From the IMG/VR virus record IMGVR_UViG_3300024343_000071, positions 1 to 30,743 of that record: DNA of 30,743 nt. One strand, given 5' to 3'. The notes below the pieces were generated by a model. It saw only the letters and a list, made by a program, of their open reading frames with translations. It did not search any database and was not told the origin of the DNA. A program made the translations under genes and the position numbers. Every line of letters starts with the position of its first letter. The stretch's first letter is position 1. This DNA comes from a virus. Positions 6,781-14,593 of this stretch are shown here, piece by piece.

Positions 6781-7248
6781 ATGGCAAATATAGATAACGA
6801 ATGCAAAGATCTTGAAGTAAAAGATTTTTACGACCAGTCAACTACACACTTGGCTGATATTATGGAAAACCAAAAGAAAATGCAAGAGCAGACTTATGGT
6901 TTCAAATTTGAAGATATGACAATTAGAGAAGTTATGAACTTCTGGCATGTTAATACACACGCAGTCGTTGATGAAATTCATGAAATGACGGATGCACTTG
7001 GCGGTATTAAAGATGGATCTGGCAATGCAGTATGGAAATACTGGAAGAAAGATTTCTCAAAGTATGAAACTATGAAAGTTTCAGATCTATCAGATGGCGA
7101 CAAGAAAGAATTGTATATGGAATGGGTAGACATTCTACACTTCTTTATAAACTACGCGGCCTCAATCGGATTAGATGCAAAAACAGCATACAACTATTAT
7201 TTCGCAAAAGCAGAAGAAAACGTTAACCGCCAGAAAAATAACTATTAA
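6781..7248 (+). CDS. 56: dCTP/dUTP pyrophosphatase, T4 gp56-like (dimeric dUTPase family)
   Basis: The 155-residue all-alpha protein has the two metal-binding pairs of dimeric dUTPases: E65/E68 in EIHEM and E114/D117 in MEWVDILHF. The spacing AVWKYWKK (83-90) and the ending YNYYFAKAEENVNRQKNNY match T4 gp56 (AVWKKWK, KLYYLKNKENFERQDNGY) closely as I remember it. The enzyme hydrolyses dCTP and dUTP to monophosphates. In T4 this keeps unmodified cytosine out of DNA and supplies dCMP for hydroxymethylation. The following polymerase gene starts at its last stop base (TAATG), so the two are translationally coupled. Confidence 0.8.
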   Translation: MANIDNECKDLEVKDFYDQSTTHLADIMENQKKMQEQTYGFKFEDMTIREVMNFWHVNTHAVVDEIHEMTDALGGIKDGSGNAVWKYWKKDFSKYETMKVSDLSDGDKKELYMEWVDILHFFINYAASIGLDAKTAYNYYFAKAEENVNRQKNNY

Positions 7249-8645
7249 TGATTTTAGATATTGAGCAAAGAGACAAAGACGTCATCATTTCCTACTATGA
7301 TGTCGAAGGCAAAGTAGCATTTAAACAATATCCAATTTCACAGTTTCAAAACTGGTATATCTGTGACGAAAAAGAACGAGGAGTAAGTACTGAATTTAAA
7401 AATTGGGATGGTCGACCTGTTAAATTAGGTCCAGCTCGCCAGTTCAATAAGTTCTCAATGGTCTATTTTATTGATGGATTACCAGAAAGAGATAAAGAAG
7501 AACTACTGGCATATAATATGCCTAAGACATATTTTGTCGATATTGAAACTGAAATCGTTGATGGTTTTCCAAAGGCTGAAGAAGCTAAATCAAGAATTCT
7601 TTCTTTCTCTATCATTACACCTGAGCGTAAAGCGATTGTTTTAGGTCTTGAAGATATGGATCCTAAGAGTATTCAAAAGATTGAAGATGATACTAATGAA
7701 TATTTCAAAGATTTTGATCAAGATTGGGAATTTAAATACCATAAGTTCAACACTGAATATGATATGGTATACACGTTCTTAATGAAGTTCTTACCTAAAT
7801 TTCCAATGATGACAGGATGGAACTTTATCAACTATGACTGGCAATATATTGTTAATCGCTGTAAAAGACTTCAAATTGATATTAATGAAGTTGGTATGAC
7901 TCAAAGTGTTGATAGAACTGATTCACGCCCACTTCACATTGGAATTCTGGACTACATGCAATTGTATGATAAATATGATCGCTCAGTTAAAGTAAAGGAA
8001 TCTAATTCACTCGATTATGTTTCGAGTCAAGTATTAAATACAAATAAAATTAAGTTCACAGGTTCACTCCAAGATCTTTATAGAGATAACTTTACTAAAT
8101 ACATATACTATAACGTAGTTGACTCCGTGTTAGTCTATTATATAGATCAGAAACTTAAATCAATGGAAGTTCTTTTAACCTTGGCGAATATTACTAAGAT
8201 GCCACTGTATAAAGCAAGTTCTCCAGTAGCAATCACAGAAGCTCTTATGGCTCGTAAATTAGCTGAACAAGGAATGCGAATTGGAACAGAACAACGAGAA
8301 GATGGTCAAAAGGATGGTCAATACGTTGGAGCTTTCGTTAAAGAACCTATTGTAGGTTACTATGAAGGAATTAGTGCATTTGACTTTGCTTCACTATATC
8401 CTTCTATTATGAGACAGTTTAACATCTCACCGGATGCATATGTTGAACAAGTTTATAAGAGTCAGATTAAAGAACGAAGAGAAGATAAAGAAGTTATTGT
8501 TTGCGATAACGGTGTAGTGTATAAAAAAGAAGATAGTATTCTTAAAAAGATATTAACAGATTTATACGACCAACGGAAACAATATAAGAAAATGTCGTAT
8601 GATTATTTCACAAAAGCAGACCAACTTAAGAAAAGAATAACATAA
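7248..8645 (+). CDS. 43: B-family DNA polymerase, N-terminal fragment (3'-5' exonuclease and motif A)
   Basis: The 465-residue fragment holds the first half of a gp43-type polymerase. Exo I is VDIETE (D98, E100), Exo II is GWNFINYD (D197) and Exo III is YNVVD (Y288, D292), so the proofreading site looks intact. Polymerase motif A is DFASLYPSIMRQFNISPD, starting at D379. The protein stops after DQRKQYKKMSYDYFTKADQLKKRIT, at the start of the fingers helices. Motifs B and C are absent here and are found in the gene at 13388. The two fragments together (866 residues) are about the length of T4 gp43 (898). No intein or intron core is visible at the break. It must assemble with the other fragment to be active, which is inference. 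Confidence 0.9.
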   Translation: MILDIEQRDKDVIISYYDVEGKVAFKQYPISQFQNWYICDEKERGVSTEFKNWDGRPVKLGPARQFNKFSMVYFIDGLPERDKEELLAYNMPKTYFVDIETEIVDGFPKAEEAKSRILSFSIITPERKAIVLGLEDMDPKSIQKIEDDTNEYFKDFDQDWEFKYHKFNTEYDMVYTFLMKFLPKFPMMTGWNFINYDWQYIVNRCKRLQIDINEVGMTQSVDRTDSRPLHIGILDYMQLYDKYDRSVKVKESNSLDYVSSQVLNTNKIKFTGSLQDLYRDNFTKYIYYNVVDSVLVYYIDQKLKSMEVLLTLANITKMPLYKASSPVAITEALMARKLAEQGMRIGTEQREDGQKDGQYVGAFVKEPIVGYYEGISAFDFASLYPSIMRQFNISPDAYVEQVYKSQIKERREDKEVIVCDNGVVYKKEDSILKKILTDLYDQRKQYKKMSYDYFTKADQLKKRIT

Positions 8646-8683
8646 TAACTTTAACCCATATGGGCTCTGAATATTGACTCGTA

Positions 8684-8691
8684 GATATATA
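8684..8691 (+). promoter_or_regulatory. GATATATA motif (late-promoter-like)
   Basis: An exact copy of the octamer found before late genes. Here a strong terminator lies 20 bases downstream, so a transcript from it would be only about 45 bases unless polymerase reads through into nrdB. Confidence 0.3.
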
Positions 8692-8710
8692 ACCTACATT
8701 CAATACAAGT

Positions 8711-8738
8711 AAGAGGCCTTTCTGATGAAAGGCCTTTT
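8711..8738 (+). terminator. Rho-independent terminator before nrdB
   Basis: A perfect 9-bp stem, AGGCCTTTC with GAAAGGCCT (8714-8722 and 8727-8735), has a TGAT loop and a T-run, and flanking AA/TT can extend it. It separates the polymerase operon from the nrd genes. Confidence 0.85.
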
Positions 8739-8772
8739 ATAGTCTAAAAGGAATATAAAAAAATACAAAAAA

Positions 8773-9792
8773 ATGGAAAATACACATTCTAATTTATTTA
8801 AAGAAAGAATTGAATACAAGCCATTTGAATATCCGGTTTACTACACAGAGGGTTGGTTAAAACAAATGCAAGCATTTTGGTTACACACTGAAATTTCAAT
8901 GCAAGGAGATGTCAAAGACTGGAATGAAAAATTAACAGATGCAGAAAAGAATTTAGTAGGTAACATTTTATTGGGGTTTGCACAAACTGAATGCGCAGTT
9001 TCAGATTACTGGACAGGTATGGTTACGCATTGGTTTCCTAAGCATGAAATCAAACAAATGGCAATGGCATTTGGATCACAAGAAACAATCCACGCAACTG
9101 CATATTCATATTTAAACGAAACATTAGGTCTTGAAGATTTCTCAGCATTCTTACATGAACCAGCAATTTCAGAGAAGTTTGAATTGTTAACTTCAACTGA
9201 AGCAGATTGGACTCATGAGGACCTACAAAAATCAGCAACTGCCAGAAAGCAAGTTGCTAGATCACTAGCAATCTTCTCAGCGTTTGCTGAAGGAGTTTCA
9301 TTGTATTCATCGTTTGCAGTTCTTTACTCGTTTCAAATGAGAAACTTGTTAAAAGGAATTGGTCAACAGATGAAGTGGTCAGTTCGTGACGAATCACTAC
9401 ACTCTAAGATGGGCTGTCAATTATTTAAGCACATGTCCACAGAATATCCTGAATTGAAAGAGGACGTAAAAGATGATGTGATTCGTGCAGCTGAGCTCAT
9501 GGTTGACATGGAACATAATTTCATTGATAAGATGTTTGAAATGGGAGATCTTGATAATCTAAAGGCTAGTGATCTAAAACAGTTTATTCTTAAAAGAGCA
9601 AACGAAAAAATTGCAGAATTAGGTTACACTGATGGACCATTTATGAAATATGATGAAGCTGCTGCTTCTGAATTAGATTGGTTTTATCACTTAACGGGTG
9701 GAACAACACATACAGATTTCTTTGCAACCAGACCTACAGATTATTCTAAGGCAGGCGAAGATGAAAACTGGGATGAAGACGAATTATTTTAA
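8773..9792 (+). CDS. nrdB: class I ribonucleotide reductase, small (radical) subunit
   Basis: The 339-residue protein has the full dimetal ligand set: D46, E104 and H107 (QETIHATAY), E173, E207 and H210 (WSVRDESLHS). A tyrosine four residues after H107 (Y111) sits where the radical tyrosine is in class Ia enzymes. Together with NrdA it reduces ribonucleoside diphosphates to deoxyribonucleotides for phage replication. The acidic C-terminus (ENWDEDELF) corresponds to the tail that docks in NrdA. NrdA starts 9 bases after its stop. The gene order nrdB-nrdA is reversed relative to most bacterial operons. No TTGAAAC-type promoter is visible in the 35 bases between the terminator and its ATG. Confidence 0.95.
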   Translation: MENTHSNLFKERIEYKPFEYPVYYTEGWLKQMQAFWLHTEISMQGDVKDWNEKLTDAEKNLVGNILLGFAQTECAVSDYWTGMVTHWFPKHEIKQMAMAFGSQETIHATAYSYLNETLGLEDFSAFLHEPAISEKFELLTSTEADWTHEDLQKSATARKQVARSLAIFSAFAEGVSLYSSFAVLYSFQMRNLLKGIGQQMKWSVRDESLHSKMGCQLFKHMSTEYPELKEDVKDDVIRAAELMVDMEHNFIDKMFEMGDLDNLKASDLKQFILKRANEKIAELGYTDGPFMKYDEAAASELDWFYHLTGGTTHTDFFATRPTDYSKAGEDENWDEDELF

Positions 9793-9801
9793 TAAATTTA
9801 T

Positions 9802-11616
9802 ATGGGAAAGAAAGTAGAAAGCATTAATCATGGTGAAACCCTAGGATGGGAAATCGGAGTAGATTTTCCAACATGGGGCAACACTGAGATTTATGTAAAG
9901 ACAATTAGCAATGGCTATCTTATGCAGGGTGAAACACCAAAGGATGCATATTGGAGAGTGGCAACAACGGTGGCAAAGCGTTTACAAAAACCAGAAATGG
10001 CAAGTAAATTCTTTGATTATATTTGGAAGGGATGGTTGAATTTAGCTTCTCCAGTTCTTTCAAATACAGGAACTGAAAGAGGCCTTCCAATTTCCTGTTT
10101 CGGTATTGACGTAGCTGATTCAATTCATGATATTGGTGCAAAGAATTTAGAGATGATGTTGCTAGCAAAACACGGAGGCGGAGTTGGTATTGGTATTAAC
10201 CAAATCAGACCAGCCGGTGCAAAGATTAGAGGCAACGGAACAAGCGATGGTATTGTTCCATTTTGTAAGATTTATGATTCAACTATTTTAGCAACTAACC
10301 AAGGAAGCGTAAGACGAGGAGCAGCTTCAGTTAATATTGATATTGAACATGCAGATTTCTGGGAATGGTTAGAAATTCGCGAACCAAAGGGAGATGTAAA
10401 CCGTCAATCATTGAACCTACACCAATGTGTTGTAATTTCAGATGGTTTTATGCAAAAGGTAAAAGCTGGCGACAAAGAAGCTCGTAAAAGATGGACTGCA
10501 GTTATTCGCAAGCGTAGAGCGACTGGTGAGCCATACATTATGTTTAAAGGCAATGTAAATCGTTCAAATCCAGATGCATATAAACAGAATGGATTAAAGG
10601 TTTATATGACAAACATTTGTTCTGAGATTACGCTACACACTGATGAAAATCACTCATTCGTTTGTTGTTTATCTTCAGTGAACCTTGCAAAGTATGATGA
10701 GTGGAAGGATACAGATCTTATTTATACAGCGACATGGTTTCTTGATGGTGTTCTTGAAGAATTCATTCAAAAGGCAAAATTTATGCGTGGATTTGAAAAC
10801 TCAGTTCGTTCTGCAGAAAAAGGTAGAGCACTTGGACTTGGAGTTCTTGGATGGCACACATACCTACAAGAACGTAATATTCCGTTTGAAGGTTTAACAG
10901 CTCAATTTGAAACTCGTAAGATTTTCTCAATGATTAAAACTGAAAGTGAAAAAGCAAGTAGAGATATGGCAACTGACATGGGTGAACCTCTATGGTGTGT
11001 TGGAACAGGGATGCGCAACACACACTTAAGAGCAATCGCACCAACGGTTTCTAATTCTAAATTAAGCGGTAATGTTTCAGCGGGTATTGAACCATGGGCT
11101 GCCAATGTTTTCACAGAACAAACTGCAAAAGGAACGTTCATTCGTAAGAATCCAACTCTTGAAGCAGCTTTAGAAGAAATCGGTAAAAACACAAAGGAAA
11201 CATGGGACCAGATTTTAGTTGATGGTGGTAGTGTTTTTGGTCTTTCATGGATCGATGACTACTATGTACATGTTTCATCTAAAACTGCTCCATTACATAA
11301 AAATAAAATGGAAAGATTATCAGAACTTCAAAGAGATAATTATATTCCATTTAAATCAATATTCAAGACGTTTAAAGAAATCAATCAATTAGAATTGGTA
11401 AAACAAGCAGGCGTTAGACAACAATACGTTGATCAGGCAGTTTCTTTAAATCTTGCGTTTCCAAAAGAAGCAGAACCAAAATTCATCAATCAAGTTCACT
11501 TAGAAGCATATGATCAGGGTATTAAAACTCTTTATTATATGAGAACTGAAAGCGTACTTAGAGGAGATATTGCAGCAGCTGCGATCGATCCTGACTGTCT
11601 TTCTTGTGATGGATAG
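9802..11616 (+). CDS. nrdA: class I ribonucleotide reductase, large (catalytic) subunit
   Basis: The 604-residue protein carries the catalytic residues of NrdA: the first redox cysteine in GLPISCFG, the N-x-C-x-E active site TNICSEITL, the second redox cysteine in SFVCCLSSVNL, and the double tyrosine of the radical path in KTLYYMRTESV. The C-terminal CLSC (599-602) is the dithiol that is re-reduced by a thioredoxin or glutaredoxin. At about 150 residues shorter than E. coli or T4 NrdA, it lacks the N-terminal ATP-cone, so it probably escapes dATP inhibition through that domain. No intron or intein is seen. A three-hairpin non-coding stretch follows. Confidence 0.95.
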   Translation: MGKKVESINHGETLGWEIGVDFPTWGNTEIYVKTISNGYLMQGETPKDAYWRVATTVAKRLQKPEMASKFFDYIWKGWLNLASPVLSNTGTERGLPISCFGIDVADSIHDIGAKNLEMMLLAKHGGGVGIGINQIRPAGAKIRGNGTSDGIVPFCKIYDSTILATNQGSVRRGAASVNIDIEHADFWEWLEIREPKGDVNRQSLNLHQCVVISDGFMQKVKAGDKEARKRWTAVIRKRRATGEPYIMFKGNVNRSNPDAYKQNGLKVYMTNICSEITLHTDENHSFVCCLSSVNLAKYDEWKDTDLIYTATWFLDGVLEEFIQKAKFMRGFENSVRSAEKGRALGLGVLGWHTYLQERNIPFEGLTAQFETRKIFSMIKTESEKASRDMATDMGEPLWCVGTGMRNTHLRAIAPTVSNSKLSGNVSAGIEPWAANVFTEQTAKGTFIRKNPTLEAALEEIGKNTKETWDQILVDGGSVFGLSWIDDYYVHVSSKTAPLHKNKMERLSELQRDNYIPFKSIFKTFKEINQLELVKQAGVRQQYVDQAVSLNLAFPKEAEPKFINQVHLEAYDQGIKTLYYMRTESVLRGDIAAAAIDPDCLSCDG

Positions 11617-11625
11617 ATAATTAAA

Positions 11626-11711
11626 GGTGTGGCTGTGATGGCCACTCTTAGGACCGTTATAGTTAACGGAACGAGGCCAGGAGTTCGCTACTTCCTGGCC
11701 TCACTTTTTTT
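11626..11711 (+). ncRNA. three-hairpin structured RNA candidate after nrdA
   Basis: Three consecutive stems can be drawn: GTGGC/GCCAC (11629-11633 with 11641-11645, 7-base loop), CCGTTA/TAACGG (11654-11659 with 11664-11669, TAGT loop) and GAGGCCAGGA/TCCTGGCCTC (11673-11682 with 11693-11702) followed by a T-run. There is no reading frame. The stretch is also noticeably richer in G and C than its surroundings. It may be a stable small RNA or an elaborate nrdA 3' end. I know no RNA family that it matches. Confidence 0.4.
11673..11711 (+). terminator. Rho-independent terminator after nrdA
   Basis: A perfect 10-bp GC-rich stem with a 10-base loop is followed by CAC and seven T residues. Confidence 0.85.
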
Positions 11712-11722
11712 AAAGAAATAAA

Positions 11723-11730
11723 TATAAATA
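11723..11730 (+). promoter_or_regulatory. TATAAATA, T4-type late promoter element
   Basis: This is an exact match to the T4 late consensus, 11 bases before the ATG of the GT-A gene and directly after a terminator. In AT-rich DNA a chance match is likely, but its position is right. Confidence 0.4.
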
Positions 11731-11741
11731 AAAATAGGTTT

Positions 11742-12383
11742 ATGTTTTCAGTAGTTATTCCAACCTTATGGAAAAGCAAATACACAGTTAACTTAATTCA
11801 AAGTTATTTAGATTGTGATCTTGTATCTGAAGTTATATTAATAGATAACGCAAAGAATGATGCACCATCGTTTGATTTTAATCATAAATCTAAATTAGTC
11901 CATATAAAACAAGAAAATAACATATATGTTAATAGGGCATGGAATCTGGGTGTCACATTAGCAAAATACGAAAATGTTATAATATCAAATGATGATATAG
12001 AATTTGACATAAATTCAAATCTTCATTTCATAAATCAATTAGAGGGTTATGGGGCAATAGGTTGCAATACATATTGCTTCAACAATGATATATTTGGAAT
12101 AGGAGTTAGAGAACTTGAAGATTTTTTACTTGAAAATAAACATTATATCACTAAAGGATGGGGATGTTTACTTTTTATTAAGAAGAGCAAATGGGTATCA
12201 ATTCCAGAAGATCTTTTAATTTGGTTTGGTGATGATTGGATTAATAAAACAATTGAACCTATTCAATCTATTTATATTAAAGGTGGAATTAATACTGAAA
12301 TGTCAACTTCGTCAGGTCAAATCGAAATGAATCGAATCGTAGATAGTGATGTCAATACATGGACCATCAAATATAATAAATAA
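11742..12383 (+). CDS. GT-A family 2-like glycosyltransferase
   Basis: The 213-residue protein begins MFSVVIPTLWKSKYTVNLI, the nucleotide-binding start of GT2-like folds, followed by VILIDNAKND (31-40). NRAWNLG (64-70) precedes ISNDDIEF, whose N83-D84-D85 is the DXD-like metal site. GWGCLLFIKKSKW (about 139-151) and WFGDDWIN (about 161-168) fit the acceptor side of small phage and capsule GT2 enzymes. It lies between terminated nrdA and the clamp operon, with its own possible late promoter. The acceptor could be a virion protein or DNA; nothing in the sequence decides. Its base composition is more AT-rich than the nrd genes, which hints at separate acquisition. Confidence 0.8.
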   Translation: MFSVVIPTLWKSKYTVNLIQSYLDCDLVSEVILIDNAKNDAPSFDFNHKSKLVHIKQENNIYVNRAWNLGVTLAKYENVIISNDDIEFDINSNLHFINQLEGYGAIGCNTYCFNNDIFGIGVRELEDFLLENKHYITKGWGCLLFIKKSKWVSIPEDLLIWFGDDWINKTIEPIQSIYIKGGINTEMSTSSGQIEMNRIVDSDVNTWTIKYNK

Positions 12384-12402
12384 GATATATAGATTATAAA
12401 TA
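12384..12402 (+). promoter_or_regulatory. tandem late-promoter-like elements GATATATA and TATAAATA
   Basis: GATATATA at 12384-12391 is followed after three bases by TATAAATA at 12395-12402, 12 bases before the ATG of the 48-residue gene. Either could act as a late -10 element. Confidence 0.5.
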
Positions 12403-12414
12403 CATAACTCTATA

Positions 12415-12561
12415 ATGGAACAGAAACACGTATATGATTTTGTAGGTTGGCAAGCTGACCAATTAGGAATGACAAGAGAGCAATACATGGCTCATTATCA
12501 AGCTAATCAAATCGGATTAGGCATTGATGAATCTTTAGAAACTGAAGAATCTGAAGAGTAA
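12415..12561 (+). CDS. small acidic protein (48 aa)
   Basis: This short frame, MEQKHVYDFVGWQADQLGMT and onward, ends with an acidic tail (LETEESEE). Residues 9-35 (FVGWQADQLGMTREQYMAHYQANQIG) could form two helices. It has an own late-type promoter and starts 31 bases after the glycosyltransferase stop. The clamp promoter begins 7 bases after its stop. Codon use resembles the neighbouring genes and the frame is compact, supporting a real gene. Function unknown. Confidence 0.6.
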   Translation: MEQKHVYDFVGWQADQLGMTREQYMAHYQANQIGLGIDESLETEESEE

Positions 12562-12568
12562 TACTTTT

Positions 12569-12598
12569 TTGAAACTTTATGCGGTTTATGGTTATAAT
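12569..12598 (+). promoter_or_regulatory. promoter, TTGAAAC-N17-TATAAT class
   Basis: TTGAAA at 12569-12574 and TATAAT at 12593-12598 are spaced by 18 bases. It drives the sliding clamp and the C-terminal polymerase fragment. Confidence 0.65.
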
Positions 12599-12628
12599 AC
12601 CTAAACGTATATTAAATTCAAAAACAGT

Positions 12629-13381
12629 ATGAAAATTAAGATTAACAAAGTCGATCAAAACAGCTTTATTAGCTTTGTGAATAGATTGAAAGTCATTGAC
12701 TCTTTCATCTATTTCAAAATCAAAGATGGAGTTGTACAAGCTTCAGCTTATTTGCCTCAACGAGATGCAGTTAAGCACCACCGTATTCCTTTGGCTCAAA
12801 TGTTCCAAATCGAAGAAGGTCAAATCACAACAGAAAAAGAATTGAAGATTGCTTTCTTCGATGCACAGAAGTTAACTGATGCATTTAAGCAGTTTGAATA
12901 TGATTCAATCTCTGGTGAATTTGAATTCATCGAAAACGAAGATGATTGTGTTGCAACTACTTTCCGCATCTATAACGATGAACTCGAGATCAACCTTGCA
13001 TGCTCTGAACCTTCTTTGGGTTACAAAGATTTGACAGACGCACAGATTCAAGCTATCTTTAATGTTGACTCTGCAGCATACAAGTTTGACATTGATTACA
13101 CTACACTAAATAAAGTACGTTCATTATTCGGTTTGGATAAAGAAGAAACATTCTCAATCGAAGCAAATGGCAAAGGAGTTAAACTGACCGGTAACACATA
13201 TAATATGCTTGTTACACCAGATTATGATGGTACTTCAGGAGGTAAAGTTACATTGTTTAAAAAGTATTTGAATCTTTTGGATAAAGAAGATTACACAGCA
13301 AACGTTTTAGATAACCGCGTTGTTCTTCGTTCAAATGACTCAGAAACACTTTTAACAATCGCAACCTGCGCATCAGCGTAA
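12629..13381 (+). CDS. 45: DNA polymerase sliding clamp, gp45-like
   Basis: The 250-residue product is close in length to T4 gp45 (228) and has the alternating strand and helix pattern of a clamp. Two halves of similar layout each end in a strand-rich stretch, and the surface is acidic overall. Sequence identity to T4 gp45 is too low for me to claim recognition by motif; clamps are poorly conserved. The assignment rests on size, fold pattern and its place six bases before the polymerase C-terminal fragment, behind a promoter of the replication class. As a trimeric ring it would hold polymerase on DNA and, in T4, also activates late transcription with gp33 and gp55. The loader genes 44 and 62 are not in the window. 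Confidence 0.65.
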   Translation: MKIKINKVDQNSFISFVNRLKVIDSFIYFKIKDGVVQASAYLPQRDAVKHHRIPLAQMFQIEEGQITTEKELKIAFFDAQKLTDAFKQFEYDSISGEFEFIENEDDCVATTFRIYNDELEINLACSEPSLGYKDLTDAQIQAIFNVDSAAYKFDIDYTTLNKVRSLFGLDKEETFSIEANGKGVKLTGNTYNMLVTPDYDGTSGGKVTLFKKYLNLLDKEDYTANVLDNRVVLRSNDSETLLTIATCASA

Positions 13382-13387
13382 TAACCT

Positions 13388-14593
13388 ATGGTATTGGAGA
13401 ATATAGAAAAGCTTATTAGTAAGCCTGAAAACGAGCTTACAAAACAAGAGATCAAAGAATTAGTCGAGTACTATGAAATGATGTCAACTAAATATACAGC
13501 ATATGAACAAGCTGTTAAAGTTACGTTGAACTCTATCTATGGTGCATTCGGTAATAAGTGGTTTCACTTCTTCAATATCGATATTGCGGAGTCAATTACC
13601 CTGCAAGGCCAAAGTGCTATTCTTTATTCTGAAAAAATTCTTAACAAATACTTTCAAGAATTTTGGCATAAAGATACAGAAGTACACCAGAAATTTAATA
13701 TAAAAGTTAAGAATCATCTTAATAAGCCATCCGTGGTTTACATTGACACAGATTCTTGTTACGTTCAATTTGAAGAGATGTACGAGTCCATTGAATGGCT
13801 AGAAGAAAGCATGACAATCGACAAGTTTATCATGGAGTTGTACAACTTCAGATTGAATGATTATATTGTAAAGTGTATGCAAAGATATGCAGAAGCAACA
13901 AACACGGATAACTTCTTAATGTTCGAACTTGAAACTATTGCATATTCTGGAATTTGGCTCGCTAAGAAAAAGTATTTACAAAATATTGCATGGGAAGATA
14001 AACTATCAATTGACGATAGATATCCGACTTTAAAAAAGATCAAAACAATTGGATTCGATACAATCCAATCTTCAACCCCTGCATTAGCACGTAAACACTT
14101 AACTGAAGCTCTTAAAATTGTACTTTCAGAAAAACCAACAGGTGATCTTCTTAAAAAACTAGTTGATTATTTGAAGAAATGTAAGAAAGAATTTCAATTA
14201 GCAGATGTTGATCAAATTTCATTTAACAAGAGAACTAATAATATCGAAAAGTATATTGTAGATGATACAATTGAATTTCAAATTGGATCTAAATGTCCTC
14301 CTAACGTAAAGGCTGCAGGCTTCTACAATTATCTTATGAATACTAATTCAAAGTATAAAAACAAATATAAGATGATTGGTAATGGTGAAAAGTTAAAATT
14401 ATATCATTGTAAACATGCTATTTCAGATATGTTTGCTTATATGCCAGGTGATCACCCGTACGAAATTGCACCAGAAATTGATTATGAAATTCAATTTGAA
14501 AAAAGCGTCATTGACCCATTGAATCGAGTGTTAACATCAGTTGGTCTACAAACTTTAAATAGAAATTTAATTTATTCAACCTCACTATTTTAA
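13388..14593 (+). CDS. 43: B-family DNA polymerase, C-terminal fragment (motifs B and C, thumb)
   Basis: The 401-residue fragment begins with a fingers-type helical lead (1-40), then motif B KVTLNSIYGAFGN (K44, N48, Y51, G52) and motif C YIDTDS (D120, D122). The palm and thumb follow, including KKKYLQNIAWED (about 197-208). Exonuclease motifs and motif A are missing because they lie in the gene at 7248. The first fragment ends and this one begins in the loop between the two long fingers helices. The tail LIYSTSLF resembles the SLF part of the RB69 polymerase clamp-binding peptide and lies just downstream of the clamp gene. It is six bases from the clamp stop and so is coexpressed with it. Confidence 0.9.
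   Translation: MVLENIEKLISKPENELTKQEIKELVEYYEMMSTKYTAYEQAVKVTLNSIYGAFGNKWFHFFNIDIAESITLQGQSAILYSEKILNKYFQEFWHKDTEVHQKFNIKVKNHLNKPSVVYIDTDSCYVQFEEMYESIEWLEESMTIDKFIMELYNFRLNDYIVKCMQRYAEATNTDNFLMFELETIAYSGIWLAKKKYLQNIAWEDKLSIDDRYPTLKKIKTIGFDTIQSSTPALARKHLTEALKIVLSEKPTGDLLKKLVDYLKKCKKEFQLADVDQISFNKRTNNIEKYIVDDTIEFQIGSKCPPNVKAAGFYNYLMNTNSKYKNKYKMIGNGEKLKLYHCKHAISDMFAYMPGDHPYEIAPEIDYEIQFEKSVIDPLNRVLTSVGLQTLNRNLIYSTSLF

Follow-up and report, generated by a model that had tools for sequence, protein, structure and literature searches.

The virus record IMGVR_UViG_3300024343_000071 of IMG/VR (positions 1 to 30,743; this whole stretch of 30,743 nucleotides is hereafter the window) carries a T4-type (gp43-like) family B DNA polymerase (PolB) as two plus-strand genes separated by 4742 bp. 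The replicative polymerase encoded here is very probably two proteins that assemble in trans, because the cut is fixed at the tip of the fingers, the ratio of nonsynonymous to synonymous substitution rates (dN/dS) is low, and neither an intein nor a known intron is found at the cut. A preliminary description, made from the letters of the window, had proposed such an assembly, and the proposal has gained strength from the recurrence of the arrangement in independent assemblies, from long relatives without an intact copy and from a probably re-fused gene nested among split ones.

The first half (7248-8645, 465 aa) contains the exonuclease domain, palm motif A (D379) and the fingers helix with R443 and K447, and ends within the fingers. 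In the second half (13388-14593, 401 aa), motif B (K44, N48, Y51, G52) lies on a fingers helix and motif C (D120, D122) in the palm, and the chain continues to the C-terminal ...SLF. Pfam identifies PF03104 (exonuclease) and positions 21-137 of PF00136 in the former and positions 144-389 of PF00136 in the latter, the two open reading frames (ORFs) jointly covering the pair of domains by which the T4-type (gp43) family B is recognized. In PHROGs they match two separate families over nearly their full length, phrog_2062 and phrog_1918, respectively. Alignment with RB69 gp43 pairs first-half R443 and K447 with R482 and K486, and second-half K44 with K560, which places the break within the fingers, after motif A and before motif B. 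On a PolB divided at this point, with its halves about 4.7 kb apart, the three comparisons agree with the preliminary description, and its assignment of Exo I-III and motif A to the first ORF and of motifs B and C to the second is confirmed by the residues themselves. All 13 catalytic or deoxynucleoside triphosphate (dNTP)-binding residues are kept across the halves (four acidic Exo residues, the motif A Asp, the finger Arg and Lys, the K/N/Y/G of motif B and the D/D of motif C). Judged from the two translations, nothing essential is absent from the halves together, as had been claimed.

The first half terminates in ...QLKKRIT, 22 residues past the fingers Arg, and both ORFs end in native finger helices that are clean at the cut. 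The C-terminus of the second half, ...STSLF, is kept in relatives and is a putative clamp-binding tail. The predicted structure of the first half has a mean predicted local distance difference test score (pLDDT) of 82.6 and finds RB69 gp43 as its best match in the PDB (E 7e-25, TMq 0.69). Its terminal long helix (residues 431-464) corresponds to the outgoing fingers helix, and residues 351-383, which lead into motif A, are unresolved when the half is modeled in isolation. The RB69 residues matched by R443, K447 and K44 contact the incoming nucleotide. By these residue matches each protein would contribute part of the dNTP site and part of the two-metal site, the first half giving D379 to the latter and the second half D120 and D122.

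In the proposed mechanism, the N-terminal domain, the exonuclease domain and the palm strand bearing the first catalytic aspartate would come from subunit one, together with the outgoing helix of the fingers. Subunit two would bring the returning helix, on which motif B lies, the palm strands that carry the remaining two catalytic aspartates, and all that follows up to the C-terminus. The fingers form a hairpin of two helices, and parts separated by a cut at its tip could associate without a covalent link, through palm and fingers, and since the metal site and the dNTP site would be incomplete in either half alone, assembly would be obligatory for activity.

The same cut is widespread among relatives. 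In IMG/VR, 110 loci have both halves in the same order and on the same strand at a spacing of 3.6-7.6 kb. A wider survey found both halves on one strand, usually 3.6-7 kb apart, in 167 loci (median spacing 4.1 kb; the count includes loci from the same contig) and the first half alone in another 143, where the contig or the fetched sequence stops short or the second half is more distant. Spacing identical to that of the window is seen on other contigs (L003, L004, L005/L084), and at L220 a clamp-like gene, also present in the window, alone separates the halves. Eleven relatives of 145-236 kb have two halves each and no intact PolB; a third, intact polymerase was found neither in the window nor in these relatives. 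The cultured phages PAU, MA9V-2, PTm1 and pT24 have the same cut in the order first half, clamp-like gene, second half, and in the 462-kb LR756500 the order first half, ribonucleotide reductase, clamp-like gene, second half, uvsX, helicase is recognizable. Huge phages of up to 735 kb and Lak phages are also cut at this place, and in huge phages other than LR756500, as in some of the Lak phages, a long distance separates the halves, which are often on opposite strands and can be more than 100 kb apart (505 and 516 kb on the same strand in Lak-B5, 123 and 346 kb in Lak-A2, 256 and 538 kb in LR756504). In every split form the fingers Arg precedes the cut by 22-36 residues and the motif B Lys follows it by 34-84, as counted in the full alignment (mapping of the breaks onto PEi20 from fragments is noisy). 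Across 36 sequences the 13 functional positions are all kept, except for one Lys to Gln change in PAU and MA9V-2, and dN/dS is 0.03-0.08 in both halves where computable. The search of related genomes for the same split, suggested in the preliminary description, has thus returned 167 loci together with cultured and huge phages that share the cut. The arrangement, which it set against the close-lying halves of Aeromonas phages, is ordinary in this lineage and is shared by cultured Bacteroidota phages and by huge phages, some with halves much further apart.

Additional interruptions occur in some of these genes. A split or interrupted intein at motif C (DTDS) divides the second half once more in LR756500 (L207), PTm1 (L168), Lak-B5 (L212) and Lak-A2 (L215), giving three polymerase polypeptides per phage. 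In LR756500 and PTm1 an endonuclease-like ORF stands between the parts. Further insertions of ~0.36-1.6 kb are present at motif C of huge-phage second-half genes in L446, L449 and L452. On the reverse strand of LR756500 (L207), the ribonucleotide reductase gene between the halves is also interrupted, by intein-like and endonuclease-like ORFs.

Could the two ORFs be something other than subunits of one enzyme? The window is a 30.7-kb fragment, and a contiguous gene might have been broken in a rearranged contig. The likelihood of this is negligible in the face of the other contigs with identical spacing, the 110 loci of like order and spacing and the same cut in cultured, fully sequenced phages; mis-assembly was rejected on the evidence of the independent contigs and the cultured phages. 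Nor is it at all likely that the fragments are relics of gene decay in a genome replicated by another polymerase. Many phages do encode more than one polymerase type, and a split minimal PolIII is reported from related jumbo phages (Iyer, 2021; PMC7824862), but here the active-site residues are all kept, dN/dS is far below 1 in both halves, both have been retained across deep divergence and the relatives have no second PolB.

The halves might alternatively be joined covalently after synthesis, by split-intein splicing or RNA trans-splicing, to give one chain. LR756500, PTm1 and Lak phages do have split inteins in genes of this family, at motif C, and the PolB of phage MIJ3 is intein-split (PMC6892783). 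However, the fingers cut has no intein-like extension and both ORF ends are clean, no Rfam group I or II intron was found in the window, and huge-phage halves are seen on opposite strands at distances above 100 kb, all of which makes covalent joining as improbable as decay. An intein at the fingers cut was specifically rejected, there being no splicing sequences at this point and the motif C inteins of relatives lying at a different site.

The history of the two-subunit polymerase was examined in a tree of 36 polymerases, split and intact. The intact PolB of L278 is sister to the split enzyme of LR756504 (97.6/99), inside a 100/100 clade of split forms. Approximately unbiased (AU) tests reject a placement of L278 outside the split forms (p 2e-7) and a grouping of all intact forms (p 4e-95), and allow a clade made up of all split forms and L278, from which the intact MaF61 is excluded (p 0.40). 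Support is poor for the deep nodes between PAU-type, Lak and T4-type sequences. The L278 gene (L278:10001-12850) encodes an intact PolB of 949 aa between smpB and a Clp-like ATPase gene, a place where LR756504 has the second half alone, and is likely a natural re-fusion at the second-half locus. The nesting of this likely re-fusion speaks for halves that function together as a single enzyme. One fission in the ancestor of the lineage, with the halves drifting apart in the huge phages and one later re-fusion, would account for these relationships; the sequences are consistent with a single fission without proving it, and one old fission plus one re-fusion appears to be the simplest reading. Several independent splits at the same permissive site seem less likely, and on balance unlikely. 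They would have a precedent in Aeromonas phage 25, where an independent break lies in the same region beside a homing endonuclease, and they keep some probability because MaF61, intact and weakly placed, and the deep nodes are poorly resolved. Against them stand a common gene order, in which the clamp-like gene comes ahead of the second half, and the AU tests, in which monophyly of the split forms with L278 is not rejected and the grouping of intact forms is.

Several points weigh against a two-subunit polymerase of single origin. The model of the second half is poor (pLDDT 52.5) apart from N-terminal helical sequence, has no significant PDB matches and was not used as evidence. The completeness of the 11 long contigs is not certified, and the position of MaF61 is unstable, its placement outside the split forms being allowed (AU p 0.40).

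A further peculiarity of the second-half gene is seen in relatives of LR745206, where insertions of 38-48 nt lie within or just before motif B, at three neighboring sites and in many contigs, others having no insertion. They are present in L419, L428, L429, L431, L434, L435, L437-L440, L442-L446, L449-L455 and L457, and in L394 (G012). In 18 cases, including two nearly identical pairs, they share a plan: about 5 bases usually with a stop codon, a stem of 9-12 bp whose first bases are a C run, then a short loop and finally ~8-17 bases, after which the frame resumes correctly. Stem positions 5-9 vary with pairing preserved by compensatory change, and in a scan of 2.49 Mb of these phages all such hairpins between long open frames (15/15) fell in this polymerase gene. 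No Rfam match was obtained for the insertions in the four loci searched. These elements are candidates for translational bypass elements or tiny introns. Flanking codons are synonymous at two of the three sites (CTT/CTA, GCT/GCA, GTT/GTT), and matching flanking codons are also a feature of bypassing in T4 gene 60 (PMC5009743). As a general rule, however, landing on matched codons was rejected, since it fails at the Tyr-Gly site. RNA removal is also possible because the Tyr-Gly flanking codons are not synonymous and the L437 insertion has no stop codon. If the candidates are genuine, they must be skipped to give an active enzyme. Taken as a whole, a tentative account would combine a single ancient fission, an obligate two-subunit PolB passed down through marine phages of ~200 kb, Lak phages and huge phages of 735 kb, one re-fusion and, in part of the lineage, 38-48-nt motif B hairpin elements skipped most likely by T4 gene 60-like bypassing. 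This combination is possible, although well short of the confidence attached to trans assembly itself.

In the window, all of the surrounding features lie on the plus strand. The first half is preceded by a nucleotide pyrophosphohydrolase/dUTPase-type gene (6781-7248) whose stop overlaps the first-half start. Behind the first half follow a terminator-like hairpin (8714-8736; AGGCCTTTC-TGAT-GAAAGGCCT then TTTTAT, the scan having given the minus-strand form and the plus-strand form being read from the sequence), nrdB for the ribonucleotide reductase small subunit (8773-9792, phrog_86), nrdA for the large subunit (9802-11616, phrog_84), a second terminator-like hairpin 3' of nrdA (11673-11702; 11 pairs, then a T run), a family 2 glycosyltransferase gene (11742-12383, PF00535) and a small 48-aa ORF with no assigned function (12415-12561). 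The clamp-like gene (12629-13381, 250 aa) is directly upstream of the second half, which starts six bases past its stop and is followed by two small genes, uvsX and a helicase gene. This clamp-like family is a conserved gene just upstream of the second half in LR756500, PAU, PTm1, pT24 and MA9V-2, with a TnpB gene between the two in MA9V-2 and a 169-aa ORF in LR756500. Its identity as a sliding clamp is unproven: the protein was not recognized as one against Pfam, PHROGs or PDB sequences, and a profile comparison with one gp45 gave a probability of only 7%. Of the genes previously named between the halves, nrdB, nrdA, the glycosyltransferase and the 48-aa ORF are thus borne out and the clamp is not confirmed.

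A promoter-like site (12569-12598; TTGAAA-18-TATAAT, 11/12, a consensus match only) lies 5' of the clamp-like gene and second half. Because of this site and the two terminator-like hairpins between the halves, these are likely to be transcribed separately. No promoter of its own is evident just upstream of the first half, and promoter-like sites show no enrichment over shuffled sequence. The earlier claim of separate promoters of one class is therefore only half borne out, by the promoter-like site of the clamp-like/second-half pair; none is evident for the first half, and a shared class is not established. A possible phage promoter class, TTTGAAAC followed after ~17 nt by TATAAT, recurs 5' of several genes in the window (1832, 12569, 16948).

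Split PolB genes were known before, and what is new here is the conserved, widely separated form across a lineage. The split itself is already in databases, with two entries each for PAU, PTm1 and MA9V-2, and PTm1 is annotated with an "intein-containing split DNA polymerase precursor"; no paper on the conserved, widely separated split, or on its presence in Lak or huge phages, was found in the open PMC library. As far as found, the experimental case in which two proteins together form the active site of a phage replicase comes from a phage with neighboring half-genes. With a split that appears fixed throughout a large, deep lineage including the biggest phages, its halves free to separate and once re-joined, nature provides a test of how an essential enzyme can outlast the division of its gene and of whether separate expression of the subunits serves for control. 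The split also explains why automatic annotation and marker-gene trees can give the impression that these phages have truncated or duplicate polymerase genes.

The experimental precedent is the gp43A/gp43B pair of Aeromonas phages 25 and 44RR (Petrov, Ratnayaka and Karam, 2010; reviewed in PMC2988022), and the phage 25 proteins co-purify and polymerize DNA (PMC2988022). As in the window, a T4-type PolB is cut between the fingers Arg and motif B, as read directly from the 43A and 43B sequences. However, the Aeromonas halves are neighbors, with a homing endonuclease gene or an untranslated spacer between them, whereas those of the window are 4.7 kb apart with several unrelated genes between; phage 25 43B has a group I intron, whereas the window split has no known intron; and, unlike the case of phages 25 and 44RR, the window-type split is fixed across a whole lineage. 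In jumbo phage MIJ3, PolB is also broken into separate ORFs, but the intein motifs reported there (PMC6892783) mean that protein splicing can rejoin them, and no intein is found at the window cut. Sphingomonas phage PAU (gp105/gp110), Chryseobacterium phage MA9V-2 and Tenacibaculum phages PTm1 and pT24 share both cut and order at 23-33% identity to the window, PTm1 differing in its additional split intein at motif C. The closest database relatives are the huge phages LR756500, LR756502, LR745206, LR756504 and LR756501 and the Prevotella Lak phages (first half at most 45% identical), which share the cut, with spacings that run from 11-14 kb to over 100 kb and with the halves often on different strands, and in which, unlike the window, the second halves of Lak and LR756500 are divided once more by the motif C intein.

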